This document shows, piece by piece, positions 6,925 to 52,683 of a stretch of 64,000 bases of DNA. Positions within the stretch are counted from its first letter, which is position 1; the number at the start of each line of letters is the position of its first letter. The notes beneath the pieces were generated by a model. That model searched no databases and had not been told where the DNA came from. It saw only the letters and a list, made by a program, of their open reading frames with translations. The stretch lies in the IMG/VR virus record IMGVR_UViG_3300043411_000921, positions 177,400 to 241,399 of that record; one strand, given 5' to 3'. Made by a program: the position numbers and the translations under genes. The DNA comes from a virus.

Positions 6925-7953
6925 TTACTTCTTCTTCCTTGATCTTACAGTCTCTGTAAATAGACCAGAAAGGGGTGCATGAGCATCATCATCCAATCCA
7001 AGCCTGTCTGCAATGTTCAGCATTCCTCTATCTTCCGCAGCATCCCCAGCCCTTGAAACTCTTGTGTCTCCGAGGGAAGGGAACACCCCCTGATAACTCG
7101 GACCCGACTCCCCAAGAGGGAACAGGATTTCTCTTATTGATTCCCCTTTGGATCCCTCTTCTGGTAATGTTCCACTAGACAACATCCCTGACAACTTTCT
7201 CATCGGGTTTTCTCGTGTGTTCTCCAAGAAGACGTAAGCGAGGGCATCACACGTCACGGATCCTTTTGCGAGCACCTCTTGTTGATATTCGTAGGTGTCC
7301 TCCCCGACCTCCAGGTACTTCGCAGCCTCAAACATGTTGAAAAAGAAGCTGTTTTCCTCGGTCTTGCACCTTCCAAGGACAACAAATCCCTTGGGAATAT
7401 CACCTTCCATGCGAACCTGACCAAAAAGCTTGGGCATGGACTCTTCCCTCCTGGACCAACTGGTGATATTATTCCCGGCTCTAGGTGACATAATAGCGCC
7501 ACGAACGACTCCTTCCTTACCAGGAGTCGTCAAGCCTGTTAGACGCCTCAGATAATCCTCCTGGATGCCAAAGAGAACCCTCCAGGCATATCCCTCTCTC
7601 ACCTGAAAGAATTTCTTGTACCAACCCTGCTCCTTCATCTTCCACATCAGGTCAACCATTTTTTCCAGGCCATCCCTGTTGTTCCATGAATAGTAGTTGC
7701 CAAGAGCAGCAATCAACCTCTTTTCTTCGGGAGAATCCTCTTCCTGAATATTTTCCTCGTAAACGTTCTTCCTCATCCACCCAAAAAGATATTCCCCAAA
7801 AGGTGCGTCTTTCGGAGCTTCTGGTGGAGGAGAATCCTTCACAACAGCAACCTTCTTTTTTGGTTTGGGTGGCAGCCAAGGCTTGTCTGGATCAAACTCC
7901 CAATCATCCCATCCGTCACTTTCCCATAAAAACCTTGAAATTCTAGGCGTCAT
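6925..7953 (-). CDS. ADP-ribosyltransferase-like protein (Alt-like candidate)
   Basis: 342 aa. Motifs appear in the order of R-S-E mono-ADP-ribosyltransferases: Arg125 in YAWRVLFG, Ser-Trp-Ser at 165-167 in NITSWSRRE, and Gln224-x-Glu226 in YEYQQEVLAKGSV. The N-terminus (PRISRFLWESDGW) is CTS-like. T4 Alt is a packaged ADP-ribosyltransferase injected with the DNA to modify host RNA polymerase, and a similar role is inferred. Overall similarity to Alt is not visible. A TAGTTA box lies 5 bases before the ATG with no ribosome site, so the mRNA may be leaderless. Confidence 0.5.
   Translation of the reverse strand: MTPRISRFLWESDGWDDWEFDPDKPWLPPKPKKKVAVVKDSPPPEAPKDAPFGEYLFGWMRKNVYEENIQEEDSPEEKRLIAALGNYYSWNNRDGLEKMVDLMWKMKEQGWYKKFFQVREGYAWRVLFGIQEDYLRRLTGLTTPGKEGVVRGAIMSPRAGNNITSWSRREESMPKLFGQVRMEGDIPKGFVVLGRCKTEENSFFFNMFEAAKYLEVGEDTYEYQQEVLAKGSVTCDALAYVFLENTRENPMRKLSGMLSSGTLPEEGSKGESIREILFPLGESGPSYQGVFPSLGDTRVSRAGDAAEDRGMLNIADRLGLDDDAHAPLSGLFTETVRSRKKK
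6957..6962 (-). promoter_or_regulatory. late-type -10 box TATTTA
   Basis: GTCTATTTACAGAGAC on the minus strand: GTCT and AGAC form a short inverted repeat around the box. 38 bases before the SOD-family gene, inside the end of the upstream gene. Confidence 0.55.
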
Positions 7954-7958
7954 CGAAA

Positions 7959-7964
7959 TAACTA
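7959..7964 (-). promoter_or_regulatory. late-type -10 box TAGTTA
   Basis: CTAGTTATTTCG then ATG on the minus strand. The 5-base gap to the start codon puts the expected transcription start at or next to the ATG. Confidence 0.55.
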
Positions 7965-7998
7965 GAATCCCTCAAATACCCACGCCACACTCGTTCCC

Positions 7999-9168
7999 AT
8001 GAAGTTGAAATACCAAAATCAGACAGTAGACATCGTTCTAGGAATGGCCTTCGGTGATGAAGGAAAGGGAAAAGTGGTTGACTATCTTGCTGAGAATTAT
8101 GACTATGTTGTTCGGTTCAATGGAGGGAACAACGCTGGGCACAGTTTGAAGGTTGGCAACTTCAAGACTTCCGTTCATGCACTTCCTTCCGGGGTTTTGC
8201 ATCCACACGTTTTCAACGTGATTGGGAACGGCTGTGTTGTGAACCCAAACCAATTGGCAGATGAGATTCAAAAGATTGGGGCTGGGAGTTTGCAAGGGAG
8301 AGTTTTTGTTTCAGATGCTGCTCATGTGATCACACCTCAGAATATTGAGGAAGATTGCAAAGGTGGAAGCAAAGAGAGGATTGGAACAACGGGAAGAGGG
8401 ATTGGTCCGACTTATGCAGCAAAGATGAATAGAACGGGACTGAGAATGGGAGACCTTCTCAAAGGGGAAGGGAGAGAACTCTTTTCCCAAGATGTTCTGG
8501 ATGTTGTTCTTCCTTTGATCACAAACACCACGAAGCTGCTAAGAACAGCTTGTGATTCTGATGCGAGGATTTTGTTGGAAGGAGCACAAGGTTGTGCTTT
8601 GGATATTGACCACGGGACTTATCCATACGTCACCAGCAGCAATTGTTCCGTTGCTGGAGCACTTTCTGGCACTGGGCTTTCTCACAAAAACATTCGACGT
8701 GTGATTGGAGTTACCAAAGCTTATTCAACAAGAGTTGGAGAAGGTCCATTCCTTTCTGAAATTTTTGGGGAAGAAGCAGAAAGACTTCGTGCTGCTGGAA
8801 ATGAGTACGGAACAACCACTGGAAGACCTCGTAGAGTTGGTTGGTTGGATGCCAAACAACTTCGTGAAGCTTGTCAAATGAATGGTGTTGATCAACTCGT
8901 TGTAACCAAACTTGATGTGCTTTCAGGATTGCCTTATGTTGAAATTGATCACGGTGGGCCAAAGGAAACGAAATCGGGGGCACTCGTTTTCAAAATGAAA
9001 AACCCACAATATTCTAGCTGGGTTTCTATCCCTGAAACCACAACGAAATACTCTGACCTTCCCAAAGAAGCACAGAACTTTGTTGATATCATTGAAAGTG
9101 CAGCATCAGTTCCAGTAACACACGTCTCCATCTCTCCAGATAGATCTGGAACTCTTCCCAGACCATGA
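7999..9168 (+). CDS. purA: adenylosuccinate synthetase
   Basis: 389 aa (bacterial PurA is about 430; the shortfall is in the middle). It joins IMP and aspartate using GTP to give adenylosuccinate. The GTP loop GDEGKGK with catalytic Asp20, GGNNAGHS, GTTGRGIGPTYAAK, LLEGAQGCALDIDHGTYPY, KAYSTRVGEGP, GTTTGRPRRVGWLD and TKLDVLSGLPY are all present. Asp20 is kept, unlike the phage PurZ enzymes that make 2-aminoadenine precursors, where it is replaced. So a PurA-type role is favoured, though a dGMP-using variant cannot be excluded. No ribosome site precedes the ATG. It heads an operon of small proteins, overlapping the next by ATGA. Confidence 0.9.
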   Translation: MKLKYQNQTVDIVLGMAFGDEGKGKVVDYLAENYDYVVRFNGGNNAGHSLKVGNFKTSVHALPSGVLHPHVFNVIGNGCVVNPNQLADEIQKIGAGSLQGRVFVSDAAHVITPQNIEEDCKGGSKERIGTTGRGIGPTYAAKMNRTGLRMGDLLKGEGRELFSQDVLDVVLPLITNTTKLLRTACDSDARILLEGAQGCALDIDHGTYPYVTSSNCSVAGALSGTGLSHKNIRRVIGVTKAYSTRVGEGPFLSEIFGEEAERLRAAGNEYGTTTGRPRRVGWLDAKQLREACQMNGVDQLVVTKLDVLSGLPYVEIDHGGPKETKSGALVFKMKNPQYSSWVSIPETTTKYSDLPKEAQNFVDIIESAASVPVTHVSISPDRSGTLPRP

Positions 9169-9542
9169 CAACAACTGAAGATTGGTCATTCAAACCAGGA
9201 GACATTTTCATTATCCCCGCTTCGCATTCATCTGATTGGCAGAATCTATACGACAACATTGGTCGGTACTCTGGCAGCAAATACTTGCAGTTGACCTATC
9301 CTGCTGAGACTCGTCAACAGCCAATCCTTTCCGAAATTGAGATTGATGAACTTTGTTTCTTCTTCAACACCAGAACCCTTGGTCCGAATGGGAAAATCGT
9401 CTTTCTAGGCTTCTCACAGAAAAACCCAGAGACAATGGGTTTGTTCATCAACTCAGAAGGAGCAGTGATTGAAATTGAATTGCTGTTTTTCGAGGAAGAT
9501 GTTGTTGGATATCTCCAGAAAATAGAAGTGGAAAGTGATTAA
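9165..9542 (+). CDS. small paralogous-family protein 1, 125 aa
   Basis: No known family recognised. It shares with the next gene a clear block, IVFLGFSQKNPETMGLFINS, then EGAVIEIELLFFEEDVVG. A third, weaker relative is encoded at 10232-10567. The short beta-strand-rich body could be an SH3-like fold. Coupled to purA by ATGA. Confidence 0.65.
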   Translation: MTTTEDWSFKPGDIFIIPASHSSDWQNLYDNIGRYSGSKYLQLTYPAETRQQPILSEIEIDELCFFFNTRTLGPNGKIVFLGFSQKNPETMGLFINSEGAVIEIELLFFEEDVVGYLQKIEVESD

Positions 9543-9876
9543 GCCCGGAGATGTTTTCGTTGAGATCATCGGCAAACGCATACGAAAGTCGCAAAGAAAA
9601 CTGAGAGTTTCTTGGTCTGTCGAAATGAGAGACGATATGAGGGCATTCTATAACGTCATCGGACCAGTGATTCCCATTAATTTCCTTCACCCAGAAGGTT
9701 GTGAAAACAACAAAGTCGTTTTCTTGGGATTTAGTAAAACCAGACCCAAGACAACTGGCATGTTCATCAACTCTGAAGGTTCAATTGAGGAAATTGACTT
9801 AGAGTTCTTTGTTGAAGAGATCGTTGGCAAATTCATAACAAAGCTGGAAACAGAGGATAATGAAGATGTTGAATGA
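9535..9876 (+). CDS. small paralogous-family protein 2, 113 aa
   Basis: Uses a GTG start that overlaps the upstream stop; VIKPGDVF opens the protein. The block VVFLGFSKTRPKTTGMFINS and following EGSIEEIDLEFFVEEIVG align directly with the upstream protein, so this is a tandem duplicate. Function unknown. Confidence 0.65.
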   Translation: MIKPGDVFVEIIGKRIRKSQRKLRVSWSVEMRDDMRAFYNVIGPVIPINFLHPEGCENNKVVFLGFSKTRPKTTGMFINSEGSIEEIDLEFFVEEIVGKFITKLETEDNEDVE

Positions 9877-10222
9877 AAGCGAAGAATCGTTTCTTGGTGT
9901 TTTTGAATTGAATCCGCAAAGAAAGTTTGGTTTGGAAATTGGTGCGGCGGTCATGGTTGCGGTCATGGTTGTTGCTGACCAAGATGTTGTTGGAACAAGT
10001 CCAGAAGGATTTCCTCTTGTTTTGAGAAATCTACAAAGCGTTCAAATTCCAAGTCGGCTGATTGATTTTGTTCTTGGTTCTCCGATCACGGCCATCACAA
10101 AACATCCAACATACTACATTTGCATCAACAAAACTGGCGATACAATCGCCATTGAAAAACATCTTTGGGAAACCACGGTCAAACAGAAGTTGCAACGAGT
10201 GGCAGAAACAACGAGCGTATAG
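9860..10222 (+). CDS. hypothetical protein, 120 aa
   Basis: Not recognised. Overlaps the upstream gene by 17 bases; an alternative ATG lies at 9866. Contains a hydrophobic stretch (GAAVMVAVMVVADQDVVG) too polar at its edges for a sure membrane segment. Gene size and position suggest a diverged member of the same small-protein operon. Confidence 0.55.
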   Translation: MKMLNESEESFLGVFELNPQRKFGLEIGAAVMVAVMVVADQDVVGTSPEGFPLVLRNLQSVQIPSRLIDFVLGSPITAITKHPTYYICINKTGDTIAIEKHLWETTVKQKLQRVAETTSV

Positions 10223-10231
10223 AAAGAAAAA

Positions 10232-10567
10232 ATGGAAAACGAATACAATCTCACCCCTGGAAAAGTCTTTTCAGTCGAACCAAACATTTCAAAAAATCTA
10301 TTCAAAGCCTTTCATAAACCGGGAACGATGTCATGTGCCATCATGGCACATGCTCAATTGTCGCCACCTGGATTTGCTGAGAATCTTGTGAAAACTGGGA
10401 AGCTGTTGGGTGGAGCTGATGCGATTACCTTCCTTGGTTTTGTGGATGATTCATTCGAGAAAGGTTTGTTTGAAAATTCTCGTGGAGAAAGGGCAGAAGT
10501 TTTCTTGGGACCAGAGATTGACCCACACCTCGAACTTGTTTTAACGGACAAGGCAGAAACTCCTTGA
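10232..10567 (+). CDS. small paralogous-family protein 3, 111 aa
   Basis: The block ITFLGFVDDSFEKGLFENSR followed by GERAEVFLGPEID repeats the FLGF...GLF.NS.G pattern of the two proteins at 9165-9876, so it is probably a third, more diverged paralog. Function unknown. Confidence 0.6.
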   Translation: MENEYNLTPGKVFSVEPNISKNLFKAFHKPGTMSCAIMAHAQLSPPGFAENLVKTGKLLGGADAITFLGFVDDSFEKGLFENSRGERAEVFLGPEIDPHLELVLTDKAETP

Positions 10568-10592
10568 CCGGATCGTGGGAGTGTGGTAGAGT
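10564..10592 (+). promoter_or_regulatory. early-type promoter TTGACC-17-TAGAGT
   Basis: The -35 box TTGACC (10564-10569) and -10 box TAGAGT (10587-10592) are 17 bases apart. The -10 box ends 6 bases before the ATG at 10599, so the transcript may begin at the start codon. Confidence 0.65.
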
Positions 10593-10598
10593 CCACAC

Positions 10599-10823
10599 AT
10601 GCCAGAGAAGATTCTAGGAACAGTAGTCTTCAACAAGGATTTTGACATCTACAAACAAGGTGACACGGTACAAATCACGAAGGCGATGTATTCTCCCTTT
10701 GGAGAGATGTACTTCAAAATCTCTGGGACAATCTGCTGGGTAAGCACCAAAGAAGTTACGAACATCGACGTTGTAGCCGCACGTCGTTGCCAGTACATCA
10801 ACATCTACAAAGACGCGGCTTAG
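10599..10823 (+). CDS. small hypothetical protein, 74 aa, probable leaderless mRNA
   Basis: Not recognised. Beta-rich, with GTVVFNKDFDIYKQGDTVQI suggesting an SH3-like barrel. It has its own early-type promoter and no room for a ribosome site, so it may be read from a leaderless mRNA in early infection. Confidence 0.6.
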   Translation: MPEKILGTVVFNKDFDIYKQGDTVQITKAMYSPFGEMYFKISGTICWVSTKEVTNIDVVAARRCQYINIYKDAA

Positions 10824-10848
10824 TTCTCAAAGAAAGGTTTATTTCAAC

Positions 10849-11520
10849 ATGGAAAAGGTTATTCTTAAGTCGATTCTTGATCCTGAGTCCAAGCAGTATT
10901 GTGTCAAGGATGGCACTGCTGTTTCTCTGGAGTTTCATTCTCCCTTCAATGTTCTGGATGGTGATTACATTGTTACAGAATCCAAAGCCGGTCGTGGTCG
11001 TGGAGGCAGCCGCCTCCTCAAGATCACTTCTGTTTCTGATCCTGCAATGGTGATTGACACTCTCCAGGTGGAAGGTGAGCCCAAGGCACTCGGTACCCCG
11101 ACCAGTGAGTATTTCAAGTGTGTTGTTGTTGATGGCACTCGCTATGAGGGTGAGAACATTCAGACTCCTGCACCTTCACCCTTTCATCGTGAGCCAACTG
11201 GTTTTTTCCAGCGTTCAGATCAGCGTGTGAAGGCGGAAGCTCGTGTTGCTGGTGCCACTGTAACCAAGAGCCAACTTGCTACCAACGCTCTCCAGAAGAT
11301 TCTTTCTGAGAATCCGAATGCTCATATTCTTCTGGGCACGCACAGCAACAACAAGGCTCATCCCCTGAATGGAGAGTGGGTTGTCGAGAGTTCAACGGTA
11401 GAAGGCAATGCGATGGTGCTGAACCTCCGAGGACTCAACAACGCCAACCTCACCGCTGAGTTCGATGTCCAGCGAGACATTGGCCTGATTGATCGAATCG
11501 ACACCATTCGCTATTCGTAA
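10849..11520 (+). CDS. hypothetical protein, 223 aa
   Basis: Not recognised. A good ribosome site (AAAGG) precedes the ATG. Two parts are suggested: an N-terminal beta-rich half with a basic GRGRGGSRLL loop (about residues 48-57) and a C-terminal half after about residue 120. Codon use appears more GC-rich than in the neighbours, judged by eye, which may point to a different origin or high expression. Confidence 0.6.
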   Translation: MEKVILKSILDPESKQYCVKDGTAVSLEFHSPFNVLDGDYIVTESKAGRGRGGSRLLKITSVSDPAMVIDTLQVEGEPKALGTPTSEYFKCVVVDGTRYEGENIQTPAPSPFHREPTGFFQRSDQRVKAEARVAGATVTKSQLATNALQKILSENPNAHILLGTHSNNKAHPLNGEWVVESSTVEGNAMVLNLRGLNNANLTAEFDVQRDIGLIDRIDTIRYS

Positions 11521-11541
11521 TCCAGCCGCCTCATAATCCAC

Positions 11542-12210: not shown

Positions 12211-12216
12211 GTGATC

Positions 12217-12921: not shown

Positions 12922-12941
12922 AGCAGCTATGCTATGAAATA

Positions 12942-13238
12942 TCAAGCAAGTTTGATAAATCTGCGTCTGATCAAGACCTGCTCCAGCAGCCTTTCAGAAG
13001 AAGCAGGAGCATCAAACTGGAGTCTTGCAAGTGAAGCATCAATGTCTTCTTTGATCACTCTAACATCAGGAAGAACGGAGCGAAGTTCTTGCTGGAGAGC
13101 AATGAAGTCTCTATGGATGTCTTCTCTGCGAGCGTGACTTGGGTAATGCTTCTCAAAGAGATTCCCAGGTTTTTGTTGCTTTCTCTCTGATGGATCTGGA
13201 TGGAATTCAGACTGAAGTGGTTTCAGGTGTGATCTCAT
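12942..13238 (-). CDS. hypothetical protein, 98 aa
   Basis: Not recognised. Highly charged and helical. The start overlaps the end of the upstream gene by ATGA, so the two are translated together. Confidence 0.55.
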   Translation of the reverse strand: MRSHLKPLQSEFHPDPSERKQQKPGNLFEKHYPSHARREDIHRDFIALQQELRSVLPDVRVIKEDIDASLARLQFDAPASSERLLEQVLIRRRFIKLA

Positions 13239-13588
13239 TTGTTTTTCTTGCTTTCTCCGATAAGAGTTCTCAGCTTCATAACATTTCCAATCGTGTTTCT
13301 TGTGGTTCTGAGATAACCAATCAAAGTCAACACGAGCCGCTTCCTTTCTGAAGCAGCTTGGTTGTGAAGGAAGTTCTCAGTCAAAAGACTTTCCCCTTCA
13401 TCAGCAAGCTCATCTGCTGTTGCAAAGGTTTCATCAAGAAAGGTTTGAACCTTTTTGACAAATGCACTGAGTTTCTTGTCGCCGTCTTGAGCACCAGTCA
13501 ACAGAAACTCATCTGCATCCATTGCTTCAAGAAGGATTTTTTTCACCACAGCTTTTGTGAGTGGATTGGGTGTTGATTTATCGGTCAT
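13235..13588 (-). CDS. hypothetical helical protein, 117 aa
   Basis: Not recognised. The N-terminal TKAVVKKILLEAMDADEF resembles the CTS-like peptide but has a longer lead. The ATG follows a TATTTA box by 5 bases (with GGCC repeated on each side), and there is no ribosome site, so a leaderless late mRNA is predicted; it also overlaps the upstream HNH gene by ATGA. Confidence 0.55.
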   Translation of the reverse strand: MTDKSTPNPLTKAVVKKILLEAMDADEFLLTGAQDGDKKLSAFVKKVQTFLDETFATADELADEGESLLTENFLHNQAASERKRLVLTLIGYLRTTRNTIGNVMKLRTLIGESKKNK

Positions 13589-13911
13589 GGCCGTAAATAT
13601 GGCCCGCGAACAACCATTGGATTATCCTCTGGCAACACCTTCCAATACTTCCTCTCCAAAGGAGGTTCTTCTCCCTTCTTGAAGAACATAAGCTTTCTTC
13701 CTGTTGGGGTTGTGCTGGAATAGACACCAATGATTGTTATGTCGCCAGAGTGAACAAGGTTGTGACAAGTCGCACAAAGAACAGCAAGGTTATTGCTGTG
13801 ATTCGTTGAACGACTATCGCATCTGGGGATTATGTGGTGGAGATGAAGGGCCGCTGGAATGTCATAAAGACAAACCTCACAGAATAACTTCTTTGGCTTT
13901 TTGGATGCCAT
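13585..13911 (-). CDS. HNH endonuclease
   Basis: 108 aa. A CEVC knuckle (residues about 11-14), then LHHIIPRCD and NLAVLCATCHNLVH: the HNH core with its metal-binding CxxC pairs. HNH proteins nick or cut DNA; in phages they act as homing or packaging nucleases. It is not inserted in an intron here but lies inside an operon, 7 bases from the deacetylase gene and overlapping the next gene. Small size gives only the catalytic domain. Confidence 0.8.
   Translation of the reverse strand: MASKKPKKLFCEVCLYDIPAALHLHHIIPRCDSRSTNHSNNLAVLCATCHNLVHSGDITIIGVYSSTTPTGRKLMFFKKGEEPPLERKYWKVLPEDNPMVVRGPYLRP
13594..13599 (-). promoter_or_regulatory. late-type -10 box TATTTA
   Basis: GGCCATATTTACGGCC then ATG on the minus strand. 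GGCC on each side forms an inverted repeat, and the gap to the ATG is 5 bases. Confidence 0.55.
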
Positions 13912-13918
13912 TTAATCG

Positions 13919-14788: not shown

Positions 14789-14791
14789 TTC

Positions 14792-15067: not shown

Positions 15068-15087
15068 TAGTTTGCCTTTCTTGATAC

Positions 15088-15117: not shown

Positions 15118-15124
15118 GAATATC

Positions 15125-15153
15125 TTGACCTTTTCCTCATGGTGCCATAGGGT
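15125..15153 (+). promoter_or_regulatory. early-type promoter TTGACC-17-TAGGGT
   Basis: TTGACC (15125-15130) and TAGGGT (15148-15153) are 17 bases apart; the ATG at 15160 follows after 6 bases. The same boxes and spacing occur at 47139. Confidence 0.65.
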
Positions 15154-15159
15154 GTTGAT

Positions 15160-15405
15160 ATGGAACAGCAACGACGTTTTGCATTGGATGAGTCTGGAGA
15201 GAATGATGAAGTCTTGGCGGTTGTTGTCACAGAAGATTGGATTCGTGACAACTATTGGCCTTTCTGGTACGAAAAGATGGTTGAAAAACTTGGGAAGGAA
15301 AAGGCGGACACCTGCACCTTCCAAGATTGCTTGGATGATTGGGTTGTCGGACAGTGGGCTTGGGTTCTAGGAGAAGATGGAGAGTGGAAAGCTTACGGAG
15401 AATAG
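15160..15405 (+). CDS. small acidic early protein, 81 aa, probable leaderless mRNA
   Basis: Not recognised. Acidic and rich in Trp (WVVGQWAWVLGEDGEW). It stands alone on the + strand between minus-strand blocks with its own early promoter. It is a candidate host-takeover protein, but this is inferred only from size, charge and promoter. Confidence 0.6.
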   Translation: MEQQRRFALDESGENDEVLAVVVTEDWIRDNYWPFWYEKMVEKLGKEKADTCTFQDCLDDWVVGQWAWVLGEDGEWKAYGE

Positions 15406-15441
15406 AGGAAAACTCGGCGTGCTGTTTGTCTGTTTGTCGTG

Positions 15442-19041: not shown

Positions 19042-19047
19042 TAAATA
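19042..19047 (-). promoter_or_regulatory. late-type -10 box TATTTA
   Basis: CTATTTAATC on the minus strand, 28 bases before the sheath 1 ATG and just after the terminator hairpin of sheath 2. Confidence 0.55.
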
Positions 19048-19050
19048 GAA

Positions 19051-24646: not shown

Positions 24647-25906
24647 TTAGTAAATGCCAATCGCATACTTCGGAGGAACAGGAACATAAGAGAGTTGCTT
24701 CACCATCTGCTCTGCTTTGTTTGCATCTCTCTCAGCAACCTTGTCAAAAGTTAGGTTGTCCAGCGTCTCTTTCAAAGAAGTGAGAAGCTTGTCTGCATCT
24801 TCTCTTCCTTGAGAAATGAGGTCTTCACCATTCAAGGAAAGATCAGCACCTGGAATTGGGAGAGATTTGAATTTGGAACGAATCCTTCCAAGTTGAATGG
24901 TTGAAAGAGCCAATGTCATTTGAGCAATCCAGTTCCTGCTCCAGACGTTCAAAGAATTGTAGTTCAACGGACCAAATGGTGTGTTGAAAGGACCATTCAC
25001 TCCATAAATCTTGTCATCCTGATACGATCCAGAGACACCAGAGCCAACTGTGGAATAAGAAGAGCCGCTTGCAACGAGAGTGGAAGCAAGTGTTGGAAAG
25101 GGTTGTCTGCCGAACCTAACACGCATCCAAAGCCTGTTGTTGTAGGTCGGAACCATGTTGTTAGGCGTCGGGAAAATACGAATCTTCCTGCCAGAAATCC
25201 GATAGGAATAGTGTGATCTTCTAACCTTGCTGGCAGCTTCCAACATCCCAGCCCTCAACACATCTTCAAACAACGGAAGAACATAAAATCTTGTGTCTGG
25301 GATATAACTTTCAACTGGCAAACCAGAGGCAACGAAGTTGCTTGCGAGGTTGCTATTGAAAACGTATTGGACAGGAGCGTTGTGATAAACCTCCAGCACT
25401 TCCATTGATCCAACAGAGCCAGAAGGCTGCAAAGACCAAATTGTTGCTCCGTTGGAGTCAACAAGCTCCGTGTAGAGATCGTAGTCCTGCCTCCCAGAAA
25501 CCATCGGGATATATCCAGAATAAGTCTGCTCGTCCTGAGAATATCCAATCATTCCTGCATAAGGAGAAGCAAGTGCTCTCAGAAATTCCAGGTTTGGCTG
25601 GACGTACATGTCGGTGATGTTGATGTTGTTGACATTGTTTCCGTCCAAGGAACCTGTTGGCATTCCCATGAGAGAAGACAGGTTGCTCTTGTTTTGATAT
25701 TCAACCATCAGGGCATTCAACTCTCTGGTTGCCCTTTCGAAGTTGTCCCAGATCATTGGCTTTGTCAGTTCAACACCGAGAACATCTTCTCCCAACGCTC
25801 TGAGAACAAACGTGACCATGTTGTCTGCGTCTTGCTGGAATAACGTGTACTTGTCATATAAACCAAAAGAGGTTGGTCTGAGAGTCGTGTTGAAAGTCGA
25901 TGCCAT
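24647..25906 (-). CDS. head-tail connector / neck protein (gp13-like)
   Basis: 419 aa. The gene order and the pattern (IWDNFERATRELNALMVEYQ, then a YIPMVSGRQDYDLYTEL block and NNRLWMRVRFGRQPF) fit the gp13-type neck proteins of T4-like phages, which bind the portal after DNA filling. The ATG follows a TAGTTA box by 6 bases, so a leaderless mRNA is likely. Assignment is by pattern and position. Confidence 0.55.
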   Translation of the reverse strand: MASTFNTTLRPTSFGLYDKYTLFQQDADNMVTFVLRALGEDVLGVELTKPMIWDNFERATRELNALMVEYQNKSNLSSLMGMPTGSLDGNNVNNINITDMYVQPNLEFLRALASPYAGMIGYSQDEQTYSGYIPMVSGRQDYDLYTELVDSNGATIWSLQPSGSVGSMEVLEVYHNAPVQYVFNSNLASNFVASGLPVESYIPDTRFYVLPLFEDVLRAGMLEAASKVRRSHYSYRISGRKIRIFPTPNNMVPTYNNRLWMRVRFGRQPFPTLASTLVASGSSYSTVGSGVSGSYQDDKIYGVNGPFNTPFGPLNYNSLNVWSRNWIAQMTLALSTIQLGRIRSKFKSLPIPGADLSLNGEDLISQGREDADKLLTSLKETLDNLTFDKVAERDANKAEQMVKQLSYVPVPPKYAIGIY

Positions 25907-25912: not shown

Positions 25913-25919
25913 TAACTAG
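25913..25919 (-). promoter_or_regulatory. late-type -10 box TAGTTA
   Basis: CTAGTTACAAGGC then ATG on the minus strand: a 6-base gap to the start codon of the gp13-like gene. Confidence 0.55.
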
Positions 25920-26623: not shown

Positions 26624-26666
26624 TTCATCTTCCCGAAACAATAAAGCTGGGGAAGTGATCCTTTCC

Positions 26667-26672
26667 TAGTTA
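26667..26672 (+). promoter_or_regulatory. late-type -10 box TAGTTA
   Basis: CCTAGTTATCCCAC then ATG: a 6-base gap to the start at 26679, no ribosome site. Confidence 0.55.
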
Positions 26673-26678: not shown

Positions 26679-26969
26679 ATGAGTTTCGGGGATGTCAAAA
26701 CAGAGATCGTTCCAAAGGGTGTTATCAGCACCCTCGGAGATGGAAGCCTCAGAATCACAGTCCCAACAACTTTTGAAAACTCTGTCACATCAACACATCT
26801 TAGCGGAGCACAACTCCCGATCGTCCGTCAAATCCCCACCTCAACGCTACGGCACTTATACGCCTTATTAGAGGCTTCAAATCATTCCAAGCCACTCTCA
26901 CCCAACCAAGATATTCTCGGGCGCTATAAAGCATCCTGGAGCGATTTAGGTTTGGAGGAATTCGCATAG
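26679..26969 (+). CDS. small hypothetical protein, 96 aa, ends inside repeat copy C
   Basis: Not recognised. About the last 40 residues are encoded by dispersed repeat C (ending YKASWSDLG), so the native gene was perhaps shorter and extended by the repeat. A TAGTTA box 6 bases before the ATG predicts a leaderless mRNA. Confidence 0.5.
   Translation: MSFGDVKTEIVPKGVISTLGDGSLRITVPTTFENSVTSTHLSGAQLPIVRQIPTSTLRHLYALLEASNHSKPLSPNQDILGRYKASWSDLGLEEFA
26843..26950 (+). repeat. dispersed ~100-base degenerate repeat, copy C
   Basis: Left end AACGCTACGGCACTTATACG continues CCTTAT, identical over 26 bases to copy D. Right end GCATCCTGGAGCGATTTAG is identical to copy A over 19 bases. Confidence 0.65.
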
Positions 26970-39600: not shown

Positions 39601-40142
39601 GTTACTCCATAGGCCAAATCATCTATGTTTTGTCTGAAAAGACCCAAGTGGTTCTACCAGGAATAGTTTGTGAAGAAATCAATCACAAAACACTGGATGG
39701 AATCAAAACGTCTTACCGCGTTGCTATTGGCCCAGCAAACAAACAACGGGTTGTTGATCTTACGACGGTTGATGGTGAGGTCTATGGAGATTTGCAAGAA
39801 GTCAGGAATGTTCTCATTGGACGCTTGACAGCTTTCGTTGACAACCTTTGCAACACCACAAACGAACGTGTTCAGCAATGGTATGGACAAAACAACGGAC
39901 AAAAATCTCAGCCTGCAACGCCAAATGGCAAGCTGGATCCAAGTGATCTCATCAATGAAGTCGATTCCAGCCCGGCACAACCACAACAACAGCAATCTGT
40001 TCAGCAGCCGCGAACTGTCCCAGCACATCATGCGAATGCAGCGGGAAGGTACGCAGATCCAGAACTCTTTTCAAGGGAGTTTGTGGACAATGATGGCGTC
40101 GTGAAGAAAATTCAAATCAACGTTCCAGGATTCCAAGAGTAA
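39597..40142 (+). CDS. hypothetical protein, 181 aa
   Basis: Not recognised. The first ~80 residues look like an SH3-type barrel (SIGQIIYVLSEKTQVVLPGI); a Gln/Pro-rich linker follows, then a C-terminal FVDNDGVVKKIQINVPGF. Many small proteins here share the barrel-like opening. The stop overlaps the chaperonin ATG (TAATG). Confidence 0.55.
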   Translation: MSYSIGQIIYVLSEKTQVVLPGIVCEEINHKTLDGIKTSYRVAIGPANKQRVVDLTTVDGEVYGDLQEVRNVLIGRLTAFVDNLCNTTNERVQQWYGQNNGQKSQPATPNGKLDPSDLINEVDSSPAQPQQQQSVQQPRTVPAHHANAAGRYADPELFSREFVDNDGVVKKIQINVPGFQE

Positions 40143-41881
40143 TGTCAACATCAACAACAGCAACACCTGAAACCTTTCCAGTGATGGAAGTTACGTTTGG
40201 GCAAGAAGGTTTGAAACAGATTCTTGAAGGAGCAGAAGTTCTTTACAAGGCTGTGAAATCGACAATGGGGCCTTCAGGCAACAACGTCATCATTGACAAC
40301 GGACAGACAGCCCCTTTCATAACAAAAGACGGTGTAACTGTCGCAAAAAGCATTCGTCTTCGTTCAAAGATTCCCAGCATTGGTGCTGAACTCATCAAAG
40401 AGATTGCTGGGAAAACAAACGAAAACGTCGGGGACGGAACCACGACTTCTGTGGTTTTAGGTTATTCCCTTCTCTTCCAAGGCAACAAGGTTATTTCCGC
40501 TGGACACTCTGCTGTTGAAGTGAAACGTGGAATGGATCTTGCAACCGCAAAGGTTATTGAATGGTTGAAGGAGCACGCAACTCAAGTCAACGACCCAGAA
40601 CAAATTGTAAATGTTGGAACCATTTCAGCAAATGGTGATCGCTCTATTGGGGAACTTCTTTCCGAAGCAATCTCAAAGGTTGGACAGGATGGCATCATCA
40701 CCATTGAACCAGCTAAATCCGTTAAGACAACTTTGGATGTTGTTGAAGGTTTGCAGTTTGAGTCTGGATTCGTCTCCCCTTACTTCGTCACAAACCAAGA
40801 AAAGCTCACCGCTGAACTAAATGATCCTTTTGTGTTGATCACCAACAGGAAGATTTCCTCTCTCCAAGAAATCCTCCCAGTGCTGGAGTTGACAGCAAAC
40901 ACCAATAAACCCCTGTTGATTATTGCTGACGAGATTGAAGGGGAAGCTCTTCATACGTTGCTTGTAAACAAAATGAAGGGAGTTGTTTTCTCCTGTGCGG
41001 TCAAAGCTCCTTCTTATGGAGAAAACCGAACAGATATTCTCTCAGACATTGCTTTGGTGACTGGAGGGAAGGTCTTTGACTCTTCTTCTGAAAAACAAAT
41101 TCGTCAAGCAAACCTTCACGACCTTGGAAAATGCAAGAAGGTTATTGTTTCGAAGGGAACAACAACACTTGTTGTGGATAACAAGGAGAAGAAGAAAGAG
41201 ATTGATGAGCGTGCAGAACAACTTAGGGCTCTTCTGAATTCTCATGCTGGATTGGATGAACTCAAGAGAGACAACACGAAGAAAAGACTTGCCAAACTTT
41301 CTGGTGGTATTGCCGTCATCAAGGTTGGTGGTTCAACCGAAGTCGAAATCTTTGAGAAGAAAGATCGTGTTGATGACGCTTTGAACGCAACGGTTGCTGC
41401 CGTTCAAGAAGGTATTCTTCCAGGAGGAGGAACAGCATTGTTCTATGCTGCTGAATGGCTCCAGAAAGAAATGACAACAAACGAAGATTTCTTGAAGTTG
41501 ACCGATGATGAATTGGCTGGAGTTAGAGTGGTGATTGAAGCTGCTCGGCAACCCCTGAAAGTTATCGTTGAGAACACAGGAAAAAGCCCAGACGTTGTTA
41601 TGAATGAACTTCGGAACTATGACAACCGCAAGGCAACAAAGCTTCTTGAAGAGATTTCTGGAAAGACTTCAAAATCAATTGAGGTTGTGGATGTTTCGAT
41701 CAAGGAGTCTTTGGCTGGAAGGTTGCGTCAGGGATATGATGCTTACAACCACGTCTATGGAGACATGATTGAAAAAGGCATCATTGATCCTTTAAAGGTT
41801 GAAAGAAGTGCGTTGGAGTATGCTTGTTCGGTTGTGGGACTTCTTCTGACAACGAACGCGATTGTTGTAACTGATCAATGA
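40142..41881 (+). CDS. groEL-like: phage GroEL-type chaperonin
   Basis: 579 aa. A group I chaperonin: ring-forming ATPase that folds proteins in a closed chamber. Equatorial motifs present: VKSTMGPSGNNVII, ITKDGVTVAKSI, the nucleotide loop GDGTTTSVV, SGGIAVIKVGGSTEVE followed by KKDRVDDALNATVAAVQEGI (catalytic Asp kept) and LPGGGTAL. The apical domain includes LQFESGFVSPYF. Chaperonins occur in a few large phages, where they may fold the capsid protein. Coupled to upstream genes; a short gene that could encode a partner follows. Confidence 0.9.
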   Translation: MSTSTTATPETFPVMEVTFGQEGLKQILEGAEVLYKAVKSTMGPSGNNVIIDNGQTAPFITKDGVTVAKSIRLRSKIPSIGAELIKEIAGKTNENVGDGTTTSVVLGYSLLFQGNKVISAGHSAVEVKRGMDLATAKVIEWLKEHATQVNDPEQIVNVGTISANGDRSIGELLSEAISKVGQDGIITIEPAKSVKTTLDVVEGLQFESGFVSPYFVTNQEKLTAELNDPFVLITNRKISSLQEILPVLELTANTNKPLLIIADEIEGEALHTLLVNKMKGVVFSCAVKAPSYGENRTDILSDIALVTGGKVFDSSSEKQIRQANLHDLGKCKKVIVSKGTTTLVVDNKEKKKEIDERAEQLRALLNSHAGLDELKRDNTKKRLAKLSGGIAVIKVGGSTEVEIFEKKDRVDDALNATVAAVQEGILPGGGTALFYAAEWLQKEMTTNEDFLKLTDDELAGVRVVIEAARQPLKVIVENTGKSPDVVMNELRNYDNRKATKLLEEISGKTSKSIEVVDVSIKESLAGRLRQGYDAYNHVYGDMIEKGIIDPLKVERSALEYACSVVGLLLTTNAIVVTDQ

Positions 41882-47129: not shown

Positions 47130-47138
47130 AGAAACTCC

Positions 47139-47167
47139 TTGACCGAGAATATCTGCCCTGGTAGGGT
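47139..47167 (+). promoter_or_regulatory. early-type promoter TTGACC-17-TAGGGT
   Basis: TTGACC (47139-47144) and TAGGGT (47162-47167), 17 bases apart, identical boxes to the 15125 promoter. Here a leader of about 40 bases with AAGGA precedes the ATG at 47217. Confidence 0.65.
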
Positions 47168-47216
47168 TCAAGGTGTCTCGGTCACTTCAACTCCTACAAA
47201 AAGGAACAGAAACAAA

Positions 47217-47486: not shown

Positions 47487-47595
47487 TATTCCCGTCCCCA
47501 CTAAACCCTAACCCAAAACATATAAAAGGACAAGAATCCTCTTCTTGATCCTGTTTTGGCATTTCCGATAACATCAACAGAAAGAAGAAAAGAAA

Positions 47596-48075
47596 ATGCT
47601 TGAATTGGTTCTGGCCTTGATTACCCTGTTTCCTCATTCCCCATCCAGGGATTGTTTGATTGCACGTCGCTATCAAATTGCTTCTGTGTTGGAAGCATCC
47701 CAAGAGAGATTTCCTGAAATGCCACCAGAACTTGTTTTGGCGGTTGGCTTCATGGAAACACACAACGGATGTGATCGAAATGAGGGAGGAAATTGGGGTG
47801 CTCCCATTTCCAATCAACAACGTCACACAGCAGGAAGACCGATCCAGGCTGCTGCGTCTCTGTGGACATCTTATCAACGTTGCAATCATTCGTGGGAAGC
47901 TGCAACTCGACGATTTCGCACTGGACTTTGTTCTCCGTCTGCGGTAGGAACTCCTTATTCCAGGACTGCTACCAGACTCGCCAGTCGTATCCAAGCCGAA
48001 GTCATTCGCAATCAAGAAAACTCTTCTCTTGTTTGTCGCATTGATCCATCGCTTGAACGCTGTCATGCCTGTTAG
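47596..48075 (+). CDS. exported lytic transglycosylase-like protein
   Basis: 159 aa. A short hydrophobic N-terminus (LELVLALITLF) could be an export signal. The pattern PPELVLAVGFMETHNG with Glu about residue 55, then NWGAPISNQQRHT and IQAAASLWTSY, resembles SLT/lysozyme-fold muramidases. Six Cys suggest disulfides in the periplasm. It might act at infection or with the amidase; activity is inferred. A weak hairpin with AAGAA/TTCTT arms lies in the preceding gap. Confidence 0.55.
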   Translation: MLELVLALITLFPHSPSRDCLIARRYQIASVLEASQERFPEMPPELVLAVGFMETHNGCDRNEGGNWGAPISNQQRHTAGRPIQAAASLWTSYQRCNHSWEAATRRFRTGLCSPSAVGTPYSRTATRLASRIQAEVIRNQENSSLVCRIDPSLERCHAC

Positions 48076-48116
48076 TATTCCTCACTAACAACTTCTTCCC
48101 TCCAAAGGACAAAGCC

Positions 48117-49046
48117 ATGACTCTTGGTCTTTGTTGCCACTTCCTCGAACAGCACGGTTCCTCTTACCAAAACTCCATCAATGAAAAGTCGATGCAGCTT
48201 GGTAGGTTCCGTGCTGGTGCCTATTCCCAATCCCATATTCACAACCTCTATACCAATAACCTCCAAGAAATCATTCGGCTGCTCCCAAAGCTCATCTCCA
48301 ACAACATCAAGTGTTTCAGAATCTCCAGCAGCACCTTTCCGCTGTTCGAGTTCAACAAGACTTTGATTGAGAACAGCAAGGATATTAGAGACCTTCTTAA
48401 TCGAGCGGGAAGGGGTTATCTGGGCGCTGGAATTAGGATGACTACCCATCCTGGTCAGTTTACCGTTCTAAGCTCAGATAAGCCTCCTACGGTCACGGCG
48501 GCTATCACCGAGTTGGATTTCCACGGTTGGGTATTTGACGCTATGGGATTTCCTCAAACTCCCGAATATGCCATCAATGTCCACGGTGGAAAATCTGATC
48601 GTCACCAACAACTCGTTGGTGGGATTTCCCGGTTGTCTGCCGGTGCCAGGAAGCGTTTAACGCTTGAGAATGATGAGAGTTCTTACAGTGTTCGCAAATT
48701 GCTTGCTGTTTCTGAGGAGACTGATGTTCCAGTTTGCTTTGACAGTCACCATCACACCTTTAATGAAGATGGGTTGAGTATGGAGGATGCTTATGGTCTT
48801 TCTGTTTTGACGTGGAAACGTCGTGGCTGCAAACCTCTCCAGCACATCAGCAACTCAACTCCAAATCTTCCACAGACAAGCTCGTTCCAGGACAAGAGAA
48901 AACACAGTGATTTCATTCACCACATTCCCAAGTGTCAGTTGGATGGCTTGCTAAAGGAGGAGGTTGATGTGGAAGTGGAAGCCAAGATGAAAAACTTGGC
49001 TTTGTTGAAGATGCGGGAGATGCTGCTAAAACATTCCGATGTTTAG
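48117..49046 (+). CDS. uvsE: UV damage endonuclease (UvdE/UvsE-type)
   Basis: 309 aa. TIM-barrel repair enzyme that nicks DNA 5' of UV photoproducts. Family blocks visible: CFRISSSTFPLFEF, GIRMTTHPGQFTVLSSDKP, INVHGGKSDRHQQL, RLTLENDESSYSV (metal-binding Glu) and VPVCFDSHHHTFN (metal His residues). T4 uses the unrelated DenV for this. The C-terminus overlaps the convergent gene by 21 bases. Confidence 0.85.
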   Translation: MTLGLCCHFLEQHGSSYQNSINEKSMQLGRFRAGAYSQSHIHNLYTNNLQEIIRLLPKLISNNIKCFRISSSTFPLFEFNKTLIENSKDIRDLLNRAGRGYLGAGIRMTTHPGQFTVLSSDKPPTVTAAITELDFHGWVFDAMGFPQTPEYAINVHGGKSDRHQQLVGGISRLSAGARKRLTLENDESSYSVRKLLAVSEETDVPVCFDSHHHTFNEDGLSMEDAYGLSVLTWKRRGCKPLQHISNSTPNLPQTSSFQDKRKHSDFIHHIPKCQLDGLLKEEVDVEVEAKMKNLALLKMREMLLKHSDV

Positions 49047-50231
49047 CTGTTGAGACAAGACTCCACCTCTTGTGTTCCTTACTTCAACAAGGAATTTGGA
49101 AGTGGTTGTTGTGATGTGAACACTGAGTTGCTTAGATGATTGCTTGTCATTGGTGTAGTAAGGATACAGCACCCTGACAGATACAACATCTCCAACCAAC
49201 TCAAGTGTCTTTTCTGGAGAAGAGAGATCAACAACCCTAAGATCATTTCCAGAGAGTTGCTTGACGTAATAAAACCCAAATCCAACCTGAGCAGCCAAGA
49301 AACTTGCAACAGTGTTGGAATCAAACTGTGGACTTGGATCCAGCCGTTCCATTCCAGAAGATACCTTGTTCACATAGTCAGTAAGACCTTGTGCAACCTT
49401 TTCCTTGGAAACTCCCAAAGCAAAAACAAACTCATCCGTCGCTGGAAACTGTCTTGAAGGTTTTTCTTCCACTGTTCTTGTTGAAGGATTCCAGACAAAG
49501 GCATCTGAGTATCCAGTGTTTGCAAAGGTGCTGCCTCTCAAACCTTTGACACTAAGAAACACTCTTTTGCCATTTTTCAGTTCAATGCCAAAGTCAGCCA
49601 CAGAAGATCCAATGTTGGAAATGGATTTTCTGAAAGGATTGATTCCTTTTGGCATGGCTGGAGAAACTCTGTCAACACGCACAATCTCTTCTTGAGCAAT
49701 TCCCAGTTTTGCAATCAAGGAGTCCCACAATTTTCCTGACCTAGAAATGGTTGAGGTTGATAGATCATTCTCAAAGTCGTGCCCTCTATTCCCCCCAGCA
49801 CCAAACACAACAGGAATGATTTCCCCTCTTTTCTTCGGAGAATGAATCAGGTAGGTGTTGTATTTTCCACTGGATGATTTGGGCGCTCCTGGAGGAATAA
49901 CCTCAGCATCCAACCCTTCCAGTGCTTGCTTCATTAAACCAGAGATGTTTTCTTTGTTCTCTGGGGAAGTGAGGAGGAGTCGATAAGCTCCTTTTCTTTT
50001 CTGGGGGGCAAGCCTGAAACTTCCATTGGTTTTTGAGATGATTGATTGAAGAACAGAAGACCTGGAAGAGTTTGAAAGCTGTTCTGGTGTTTCTGTGTTT
50101 GAGTCTGTTCCTGTTTCCAGAGGAGTCATTCCTTTGAGTGTCAGCATGATTTTTTCTGCATCCATCTCAACGCTACGTTCCTCCTTGAGAAACAGAATCT
50201 CAAGCAACCGCACGGAGGAATCAGTATTCAT
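49026..50231 (-). CDS. hypothetical protein, 401 aa, possible nuclease-like domain
   Basis: The ATG at 50231 has an AGGTGG site, better than the one at 50255. The middle (GHDFENDL, about residue 185; then VADFGIELKNGKRVFLSVKG, about 240) has Asp, Glu and Lys in an order loosely like PD-(D/E)XK nucleases, but the last acidic position reads Ser. No firm family. It stands between repair and packaging genes. Divergent from the zinc-motif gene. Confidence 0.45.
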   Translation of the reverse strand: MNTDSSVRLLEILFLKEERSVEMDAEKIMLTLKGMTPLETGTDSNTETPEQLSNSSRSSVLQSIISKTNGSFRLAPQKRKGAYRLLLTSPENKENISGLMKQALEGLDAEVIPPGAPKSSSGKYNTYLIHSPKKRGEIIPVVFGAGGNRGHDFENDLSTSTISRSGKLWDSLIAKLGIAQEEIVRVDRVSPAMPKGINPFRKSISNIGSSVADFGIELKNGKRVFLSVKGLRGSTFANTGYSDAFVWNPSTRTVEEKPSRQFPATDEFVFALGVSKEKVAQGLTDYVNKVSSGMERLDPSPQFDSNTVASFLAAQVGFGFYYVKQLSGNDLRVVDLSSPEKTLELVGDVVSVRVLYPYYTNDKQSSKQLSVHITTTTSKFLVEVRNTRGGVLSQQLNIGMF

Positions 50232-50260
50232 TGGTTTCCACCTGGAACATATCATTAGGT

Positions 50261-50533
50261 ATGAAAACCGATAAACACATAGATGTGCTGGAAAATGGCA
50301 AAGTTGTTGTCATCAAACCAGCAGACCTTGACAAAATCATCGTTCCCTTCTTCTGCCCCTCATGTGAATACCCAATGAAAACCGCCGAAGACGCTTCATC
50401 TTTCAGAAGGAGCAGCAAGTGTGAGATGTGTGAGTTGTGTCAGCCGCCAAGTGAAAACAAGACAGATCCGAGATGGATTTCTTACATGGAGAGAAGGCAC
50501 AGAGCTTTCCTGCCTACCTTGACGATGAAATGA
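50261..50533 (+). CDS. small zinc-ribbon-like protein, 90 aa
   Basis: Two Cys pairs, CPSC (about residue 32) and CEMCELC (about 54), fit a zinc ribbon. The rest is charged. First of three tiny genes coupled by ATGA overlaps just upstream of the large terminase. Confidence 0.6.
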   Translation: MKTDKHIDVLENGKVVVIKPADLDKIIVPFFCPSCEYPMKTAEDASSFRRSSKCEMCELCQPPSENKTDPRWISYMERRHRAFLPTLTMK

Positions 50534-50664
50534 TCCATAGTTACCCAGCAAAACTATGCCGATTCAACAAAAAGCACGTTATAGAATCTTGGCTGGGTTG
50601 CTGGATACTTCCTTCGGCAGAGCCTCAGAAAAACACCCTCAGTCCAACCATTTTCTCAAAATGA
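50530..50664 (+). CDS. very small protein, 44 aa
   Basis: Starts and ends in ATGA overlaps with its neighbours, the main evidence that it is real. Basic N-terminal half and a Trp/Cys segment (SWLGCWILPS). No function. Confidence 0.45.
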   Translation: MIHSYPAKLCRFNKKHVIESWLGCWILPSAEPQKNTLSPTIFSK

Positions 50665-51017
50665 CAATGCCACTCGAAAACACCATCGAGTGCAAAGCAC
50701 AAATCATTGTGAACATGGGTGACTCAACCAACATGTACGTCGCTCTCAGAAAGAAATTCCGAGAAGAACTCCTTGACCTCATCAAGAAGAGATTGGAGAA
50801 GGTCTCAGAAGAATATGCAGAGGCAGTGAAGCAATCCAACAACAAAGACTTGCTGTCCTACCGCAAGCAGCCTCATGAAAAACCTGCTGAGAAATCTGTG
50901 ACCCTAAAAGTGGATAACAACACCATCCAAGAGTGGCTTGAGCATGTTTCTATGAGTGCTTACCGAACCAACAAAACCTGCATCTATCACCTCAACTGCC
51001 TCGTAACCATCTCCTAA
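50661..51017 (+). CDS. hypothetical protein, 118 aa
   Basis: Starts at the ATGA overlap rather than at the upstream ATG at 50556. A helical middle (KKFREELLDLIKKRLEKVSE) and a C-terminal part with two Cys. Position just before the large terminase is where a small terminase could lie, but no HTH or gp16 pattern is seen. Confidence 0.5.
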   Translation: MTMPLENTIECKAQIIVNMGDSTNMYVALRKKFREELLDLIKKRLEKVSEEYAEAVKQSNNKDLLSYRKQPHEKPAEKSVTLKVDNNTIQEWLEHVSMSAYRTNKTCIYHLNCLVTIS

Positions 51018-51028
51018 AGCCGTTTGCC

Positions 51029-51034
51029 TATTTA
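51029..51034 (+). promoter_or_regulatory. late-type -10 box TATTTA
   Basis: TGCCTATTTACAGGCATG: TGCCT and AGGCA form an inverted repeat around the box, and the terminase ATG follows after 5 bases. Confidence 0.6.
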
Positions 51035-51039
51035 CAGGC

Positions 51040-52683
51040 ATGGCTCTTACAAAAAAAGAACAAGTAGAAGAAGTTTTGAAGTGTGGGAAGGATCCCATCT
51101 ACTTCATCAAGAACTACCTTTACATCCAACATCCGACCAAAGGAAGGCTTCCCTTCCGTCTCTACCCATTCCAAGAAGAGTGTATTGAATCCTTCCTGGA
51201 CTACAAATACAACATCGTTTTGAAGTCCAGACAGCTCGGTTTATCCACAACAACAGCAGCTTATTGTCTCTGGATGGCTCTCTTCCGACAAGATGCCAAC
51301 ATCCTTCTCATGGCAACAAAACTGGAAGTTGGAAAGGGAATGATCGAGAAGATCAGAACCGCTTTCAAAATGCTTCCAGCTTGGATGTTGAACCTGCTGG
51401 AGTTGAAGGTTCCTGATGCCGAGTCCGTGAAATATATCAAGTTCACAAACGGATCAAAAATCACCGCGATTCCAACCGCAAAAGATGCTGCTCGCGGAGA
51501 AGCTGTAACCCTGCTTGTTATTGACGAAGCAGCGCACATCGAAAATCTCGAAGAATTATGGATGGGTCTTTGGTCCACCGTTTCGACTGGAGGAAGGGCG
51601 ATTGTGTTCTCAACACCTAAAGGAAGAAACTACTTCCAGCAACTTTGGGTTGGGGCAGAAGTACCAGAATTGGAACCAAACAAGGTTGGACAAATTTGTA
51701 AAGGTGTTGGCAGGAACGGATTCCACGGCATCAAACTCCCCTGGTTCGTTCACCCAGAAAGAGATGATGAATGGTTTGATGCTCAGTCGAGAGCACTGGA
51801 CGCAAGAGGTGTTGCACAAGAACTTCTGTGCAGTTTTGAAGGATCCAGCCTCACCTTCTTCTCACAAACATCAATCGACTACGTTCGCAACCTCTCTTTT
51901 CCTCCTGTTGCTTTCACTGGGCCAGAAGGAAAGGGATTGGACTTGCAAATTTGGAAGAACGCTGAGGAAGGACATCAATATGTTTTGTCAGCAGACGTGG
52001 CTAGAGGCGACGCAGAGGATTATAGCGCCTTCCATGTCTTCGACATAACCAAGTCTGAGGTTGTGGCTGAATACCTTGGTAAAATTCCTCCTGATCGGTT
52101 TGGAGAGTGGCTAATCGAGGTTGGTAAGAAATACAACATGGCTCTGATCGTTGCTGAAAAGAACACGGTTGGAATTGCCACAGCAATCAAGCTTCGTGAT
52201 TCTGGGTACCCAAACCTTTACTACGACCAGGAATTGGCCAACAAGATGTTGACCATGACTCCAGACGAGAAAAAGGATTGTCTTCCAGGGTTTACAATCA
52301 CTCCCAAGAACAGAGAAAAGATTCTGGAGAACCTGGAACAAGTCATCAGGAACAATCACTTGAGGCTTTATTCCACAAGGTTTGTTTCAGAGATGGAATC
52401 ATTTATCTGGAATGGTAAGCGTGGGCAAGCACTCAAGAAACGACACGATGACTTGATCATGGCAATGGCCATTGGCTTGCAAGTTTTCACTCCCAATGCA
52501 GAGCAACAGAATTACTTTGATGTTTTGGCAGCAAACCAAGGATTGGCGAAGGCTATGCTAGCTGGGATGTCGAGAGGCGGTGGAAGTGGAAAGCTTGGTG
52601 GGAAGAAGGTTCCAAGTTTCGTGAACAAGGAGACTGTTCAACTGGAGATGCAATTCAGAAAAGAGTTCGGTTGGCTGTATTGA
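51040..52683 (+). CDS. terminase large subunit (gp17-like)
   Basis: 547 aa (T4 gp17 is 610). Packaging motor ATPase plus nuclease. Walker A variant SRQLGLST at 63-70, Walker B LLVIDEAAH (about 156-164), and a coupling STPKGRNYF. The RNase H-like nuclease has SADVARGDAEDYSAFHVFD (about 325) and the final acidic site HDDLIMAMAIG (about 470). It has no ribosome site but a TATTTA box 5 bases before the ATG, so it is probably translated from a leaderless mRNA. Confidence 0.9.
   Translation: MALTKKEQVEEVLKCGKDPIYFIKNYLYIQHPTKGRLPFRLYPFQEECIESFLDYKYNIVLKSRQLGLSTTTAAYCLWMALFRQDANILLMATKLEVGKGMIEKIRTAFKMLPAWMLNLLELKVPDAESVKYIKFTNGSKITAIPTAKDAARGEAVTLLVIDEAAHIENLEELWMGLWSTVSTGGRAIVFSTPKGRNYFQQLWVGAEVPELEPNKVGQICKGVGRNGFHGIKLPWFVHPERDDEWFDAQSRALDARGVAQELLCSFEGSSLTFFSQTSIDYVRNLSFPPVAFTGPEGKGLDLQIWKNAEEGHQYVLSADVARGDAEDYSAFHVFDITKSEVVAEYLGKIPPDRFGEWLIEVGKKYNMALIVAEKNTVGIATAIKLRDSGYPNLYYDQELANKMLTMTPDEKKDCLPGFTITPKNREKILENLEQVIRNNHLRLYSTRFVSEMESFIWNGKRGQALKKRHDDLIMAMAIGLQVFTPNAEQQNYFDVLAANQGLAKAMLAGMSRGGGSGKLGGKKVPSFVNKETVQLEMQFRKEFGWLY

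Follow-up and report, generated by a model that had tools for sequence, protein, structure and literature searches.

The window analysed here, 64,000 nucleotides long, spans positions 177400-241399 in a phage record of 241,399 bp (IMGVR_UViG_3300043411_000921; the full record is referred to as G000). The phage encodes genes of the T4 kind, namely terminase, portal, sheath, tube, and prohead protease, together with GroEL and a sigma factor. Its closest isolates are Flavobacterium phage immuto, Microcystis phage Mel-JY01, and Rhodothermus RM378, with ~25–40% identity in the proteins tested, and its terminase is 62–82% identical in several IMG/VR contigs. Gene calling by a dicodon model on the full record gave 262–275 genes, and only ~20% of the record is non-coding. 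The comparison records were G001 (260 kb), G002, G003, and others, while T4 (two 50-kb stretches), Mel-JY01 (190 kb), and phiYS40 (NC_008584) were run through the same code as controls. The window also contains a GroEL chaperonin gene (40142-41881, plus strand), 22 tRNA genes (61045-63962, plus strand), and a gene for a PurZ-like adenylosuccinate synthetase (7999-9168, plus strand), a possible hint of 2-aminoadenine DNA.

The first-pass annotation of this DNA had singled out seven genes in which a –10 box ends 5 or 6 nt before the ATG. The corresponding features, together with a further late-type box outside those seven, are the following:

7959-7965, minus strand: late –10 box CTAGTTA (TAGTTA-N5-ATG, gap 5 to the ATG at 7953)
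6925-7953, minus strand: predicted leaderless late gene, 342 aa; the G001 orthologue has TATTTA-N6-ATG
10564-10592, plus strand: early promoter TTGACC-N17-TAGAGT, gap 6 to the ATG at 10599
10599-10823, plus strand: predicted leaderless early gene, 74 aa; homologues in G001 (TACTCT-N6-ATG) and G003 (TAGAGT-N6-ATG)
13594-13599, minus strand: late –10 box TATTTA, gap 5 to the ATG at 13588
13235-13588, minus strand: predicted leaderless late gene, 117 aa; homologues in G001-G003, where the leaderless arrangement is not obvious
15125-15153, plus strand: early promoter TTGACC-N17-TAGGGT, gap 6 to the ATG at 15160
15160-15405, plus strand: predicted leaderless early gene, 81 aa; coding-like, no homologue found
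25913-25919, minus strand: late –10 box CTAGTTA (TAGTTA-N6-ATG, gap 6 to the ATG at 25906)
24647-25906, minus strand: predicted leaderless late gene, 419 aa, head completion/head–tail adaptor (gp13-like); relatives retain a TANTTA shortly before the start
26666-26672, plus strand: late –10 box CTAGTTA (TAGTTA-N6-ATG, gap 6 to the ATG at 26679)
26679-26969, plus strand: ORF of 96 aa, doubtful as a gene; negative coding score, no homologue
51028-51034, plus strand: late –10 box CTATTTA (TATTTA-N5-ATG, gap 5 to the ATG at 51040)
51040-52683, plus strand: predicted leaderless late gene, terminase large subunit, 547 aa
53977-53982, minus strand: further late-type box TACTTA, gap 6 to the ATG at 53970
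52696-53970, minus strand: pentapeptide-repeat protein, 424 aa, probably leaderless

All seven boxes stand exactly at the claimed distance in the printed upstream sequences, and in every case (7/7) no possible start of the ORF precedes the ATG. Likewise, no ribosome site was found at the seven starts, since none of them has a 4-base Shine–Dalgarno (SD) match at 4–11 nt upstream (0/7). The description of all seven as genes needs one qualification, as the ORF at 26679 may not be a gene. The 10599 ORF has a negative coding score too, yet its homologues in two relatives keep an identical spacing.

The annotation had also held that the constant gap is not due to chance, and this was borne out by unselected scans of the whole record and by replication in the relatives. 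Among the intergenic early promoters of the form TTGAC-N16-18-TANNNT, 10 of 23 have an ATG at gap 6–7 (P ~3e-10). The late box CTAKTTA occurs 17 times in 241 kb, with 15 of the occurrences intergenic, and six of these 15 have ATG or GTG at gap 5–6 (P ~1e-4); for the remaining intergenic boxes, the called start is 14–37 nt away or none is assigned, and several have an SD-like sequence. The gap distribution over the genome, named beforehand as the check that could overturn the idea, has a peak in the record and in the relatives. Over the called genes of the record, TANTTA peaks at gaps 5–6 (8 vs. 1.4 expected, P 8e-5) and TANNNT at gaps 6–7 (13 vs. 4.8 expected, P 1.4e-3). A second TANTTA cluster lies at gaps 10–16 before the starts of 14 genes in G000, which would give leaders of ~5–10 nt. 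The leaderless genes are nevertheless a minority, ~20 of ~275 in G000, and at least half of the promoters lead to leadered genes.

These counts bear on the possibility that AT-rich hexamers near ATGs were simply picked out by the reader, through chance or selection bias. TANNNT is a weak motif, and the bare arrangement TANNNT-N6-ATG is not clearly enriched, with 57 cases on the forward and reverse strands together vs. 46 in a reversed control; the signal therefore resides in the combination of a promoter with a gene-start context. This explanation is contradicted by the unselected scans (P 3e-10 for early and 1e-4 for late promoters), by the recurrence of the pattern in relatives, and by controls that behaved cleanly, negative and positive alike. 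TAKTTA was found at gaps 5–6 before 0 of 996 internal ATGs. The gap distributions thus already refute chance or selection bias, to which we assign a negligible probability.

The position of the transcription start can be approached through promoters of the same phage that lead to leadered genes:

19042-19048, minus strand: leadered late promoter CTATTTA of the tail sheath gene, gap 28
2746, 15970, 22308, and 34806, minus strand, and 26294, plus strand: other leadered late promoters
47139-47167, plus strand: leadered early promoter TTGACC-N17-TAGGGT, gap 49
168, 920, 1433, 3596, 6136, and 7208, minus strand, and 140446, plus strand, in G000 coordinates: early promoter family TAGRGT-N5-C followed by ATC, with leaders of ~20–60 nt

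In the leadered early promoters of G000, the A of this ATC sits where the leaderless ones have the A of ATG, so that the two kinds differ by one base, C vs. G at +3. At gap 5–6, the leadered late promoters carry a purine (A in most cases), as read from the set of CTAKTTA occurrences. Since the junction of C and A lies at an equal distance in the leadered promoters, +1 is placed independently on the A of the leaderless ATG. Moreover, about one helical turn is reported to separate the T4 late box from the +1 downstream of it (PMC2988020), a distance that fits gap 5; thus, a +1 at the start codon is expected without having been assumed. The use of AUC itself as a start codon was considered, given the ATC at +1 of the leadered promoters, but it was rejected: several of the ORFs beginning at ATC are short, and an ATG follows within ~20–60 nt.

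A further distinguishing property of the candidates is the loss of SD sequences, assessed by the positional 4-mer test given above. A match is present in 3/19 leaderless candidates vs. 37% of the other genes in G000, in 0/40 vs. 57% in G001, and in 0/15 vs. 62% in G003. A broad SD-energy measure gave no contrast between the classes in G000, in our opinion because G-rich promoter bases that are not transcribed are counted, and the positional test was used in its place.

The arrangement recurs in related phages. In G001, 28 of 65 sigma70-like intergenic promoters have an ATG at exactly gap 6, including 15 of the 22 in the TTTAGA subset, and TANNNT stands at exactly gap 6 before 24 of 308 genes, vs. 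a background of ~8. The –35 element of this relative is TTTAGA, not TTGACC, and the gap-6 peak is present regardless. TANTTA at gap 5–6 was counted 13 times vs. 3.6 in G001 and 9 times vs. 1.5 in G003. Overall, a genome-wide peak of a –10 box with its first T ~12 bp before the start is found in G000 and G001, and in G003 for the late box only. In orthologues at 35–61% identity, namely the RNA ligase, a phosphoesterase, a KaiC-like ATPase, a metallopeptidase-domain (DUF2201) protein, and an AIG2-like protein, the spacing is kept while the flanking and promoter sequences have changed. The 74-aa gene at 10599 belongs with them in keeping its spacing despite promoter change. By strict counting, the ortholog-level association between G000 and G001 is modest (six both-positive pairs, Fisher P 0.027), and between G000 and the other relatives it is not significant. 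In another viral contig, of 62 kb (L099), a phosphoesterase homologue (40%) has TTGACC-N17-TATCAT-N6-ATG ~50 nt upstream of the match at 3001. From this homologue, leaderless starts may extend beyond this phage group.

The gp13-like gene and the terminase allow a closer look. For the former, 24 related loci were found, and TANTTA lies 3–15 nt before the start in all 14 distinct upstream regions read, most often at 5–7 nt. The terminase in most relatives has no SD and a CATAAT-like box 6–13 nt upstream, and that of a distant relative (45%) has CTAGTTA at gap 7. Where the box lies 8–13 nt upstream, as in several relatives, the terminase mRNA would have a short leader rather than none. In the contigs L010-L016, L019, and L021, a TCATAATA-like box overlaps the stop codon of the upstream gene, its distance to the terminase ATG varies, and there is no SD.

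Very short leaders of 1–8 nt, instead of none, would accommodate the variation of 1–2 nt in transcription start choice, the secondary TANTTA class of G000, and the terminase and gp13-like boxes at 7–15 nt in several relatives. The main peak, however, falls exactly where +1 coincides with the A of the start codon, and Lactococcus is described as having no leaders of 4–14 nt, as if these were selected against (PMC10986495). We therefore regard such leaders as a very improbable general explanation. Alternatively, transcription could start farther upstream, from other promoters or by read-through, with translation by coupling or independently of SD on a leader, and the box would be incidental or secondary. 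Some of the genes closely follow an ORF, e.g., the terminase start lies 22 nt past the stop at 51017, and the boxes at 8–13 nt in several relatives also point this way; read-through from upstream promoters could also add a leader to leaderless-candidate genes. Against this, complete –35/–10 promoters in intergenic DNA precede several of the units, the gap varies by no more than 1–2 nt across many genes and genomes, and it is precisely this class that has lost SD. Incidental boxes would not yield both a fixed gap and the loss of SD, which makes an upstream start improbable.

Thus, the early and late units are, on the sequence evidence, very likely leaderless transcription–translation units. That the mRNAs start at the start codon, as had been proposed for the seven genes, is supported by the gap peaks, the SD loss, and the +1 calibration on leadered promoters, with the 5' ends predicted from sequence. 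RNA polymerase would start at, or within ~1 nt of, the A of the start codon, so that the mRNA begins 5'-AUG, and ribosomes would take this terminal AUG by the leaderless route and not by SD pairing; initiation of this kind is known for leaderless mRNAs (PMC4633059). The early units would be served by host-type sigma70 promoters (TTGAC-N17-TANNNT-N6-ATG), and the late units by a –10-only box, CTAKTTA (TANTTA in relatives), followed by N5-6-ATG, an arrangement with T4 late promoter geometry. The leaderless genes would be the first genes of some transcripts, while leaders and SD are retained at other promoters and by genes inside transcripts.

The most likely reader of the late box is a sigma factor encoded by the phage itself:

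56066-56953, plus strand: phage sigma factor, candidate reader of the late box; match to phrog_351 'RNA polymerase sigma factor' (E 4e-26), Sigma70 region 2 (Sigma70_r2)

Sigma matches are also present in G001, G002, and G003, and a second, weak sigma-like match lies at 86404-86547 in G000. The boxes, the gap and its non-randomness, the recurrence in relatives, the lack of SD, and a phage sigma gene are shown by the sequences; the actual 5' ends, the assignment of sigma factors to boxes, and ribosome initiation without a leader are what we infer.

In a broader version of this proposal, a T4-like lineage would regularly rely on leaderless initiation, in early transcription read by the host and in late transcription read by the phage sigma factor, promoter position alone would fix the translation start, and the phage or the host would shift initiation towards leaderless mRNAs during infection. 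This broader version is speculative and, at present, rather unlikely to hold as a whole. A search for phage help to initiation of the S21 type gave no match above the cut-off. If the leaderless reading is true, many gene starts in this phage group could be read from promoter geometry alone, and the host would be expected to translate leaderless mRNAs efficiently, a hint as to which organism it is. Moreover, the C or G at +3, in leadered AUC and leaderless AUG, both preceded by C, suggests that a single substitution can switch the promoter mode. Searches for the host gave no match when genome contigs were scanned with the gp13-like protein, just two distant contigs of archaeal MAGs (~30% identity) with a terminase alignment, and distant phages or nothing with early proteins, GroEL, sheath, and portal. 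A search seeded with the RNA ligase gave the known relative only.

One of the closest known systems is T4, whose late promoters are read by gp55 (PMC2988020). This phage shares with T4 the –10-only box about one helical turn before +1 and relatives of the sheath, tube, terminase, portal, and prohead protease, and it encodes a sigma gene of phrog_351. As expected for such a late promoter, 15/17 CTAKTTA boxes lie in intergenic DNA, with no common –35 by eye. T4 gp55 as a phmmer query gave no match among the called proteins, whereas the phrog_351 match is present at 56066-56953. The box of T4 is TATAAATA, unlike the CTAKTTA/TANTTA found here, and no TATAAATA was found upstream of gene starts in G000. 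In addition, the T4 stretches scanned have their boxes at gaps of at least 14 before the start codon and lack a peak at 5–6; neither these two 50-kb stretches nor the 190 kb of Mel-JY01 have a gap peak.

A TA-like signal ~12 bp upstream is the accepted signature of bacterial leaderless genes (PMC3160421). The TA-led genes of Actinobacteria and Deinococcus–Thermus described there share with the present ones a TANNNT ~12 bp before the start, the absence of SD, and a mixture with SD-led genes; here, too, the –10 peak is genome-wide and SD is missing or rare relative to other genes of the same genome. They differ in being bacterial host genes, whereas here the arrangement belongs to a phage lineage with an additional, non-sigma70 late box.

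Mobile elements provide further precedents. The leaderless genes of lambda, P2, and Tn1721 are cI, C, and tetR, respectively. Their mRNAs begin with AUG and have no SD, as predicted here, but these are single regulatory genes, in contrast to ~20 genes per genome in the present phage, structural and packaging genes included. Leaderless mRNAs of lambda, P2, and Tn1721 are cited in PMC4633059.

Leaderless initiation is established, if uncommon, and leaderless phage mRNAs as such are already known, from lambda cI and from the Thermus phage phiYS40, most of whose middle and late mRNAs are reported to have no leader (PMC3594737), and a change in host IF2/IF3 during its infection has been reviewed. 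The suggestion that such use would be unusual in a T4-like phage stands within the open-licence literature searched, where no account of T4-like phages with leaderless genes in both the early and the late class was found, but it has to be narrowed, since a large myovirus, phiYS40, was already known to use leaderless mRNAs. What appears to be new is the use of leaderless mRNAs throughout a lineage of T4-like phages, with host-type promoters serving the early genes and boxes whose probable reader is a phage sigma factor serving the late ones. If true, leaderless translation would be widespread not just in a Thermus phage but also in T4-like phages, and coupled there to a phage late promoter system. 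In phiYS40, taken as the positive control, 26 of the 149 called genes are preceded by TANNNT at a gap of exactly 6. Both are large phages with many leaderless mRNAs (predicted in the present case) and a gap-6 TANNNT peak over many genes. They differ in that phiYS40 has no TANTTA peak and few homologous proteins (four with BLAST matches), whereas the present phage would also combine leaderless early host-type promoters with a second, late box of T4-like geometry.
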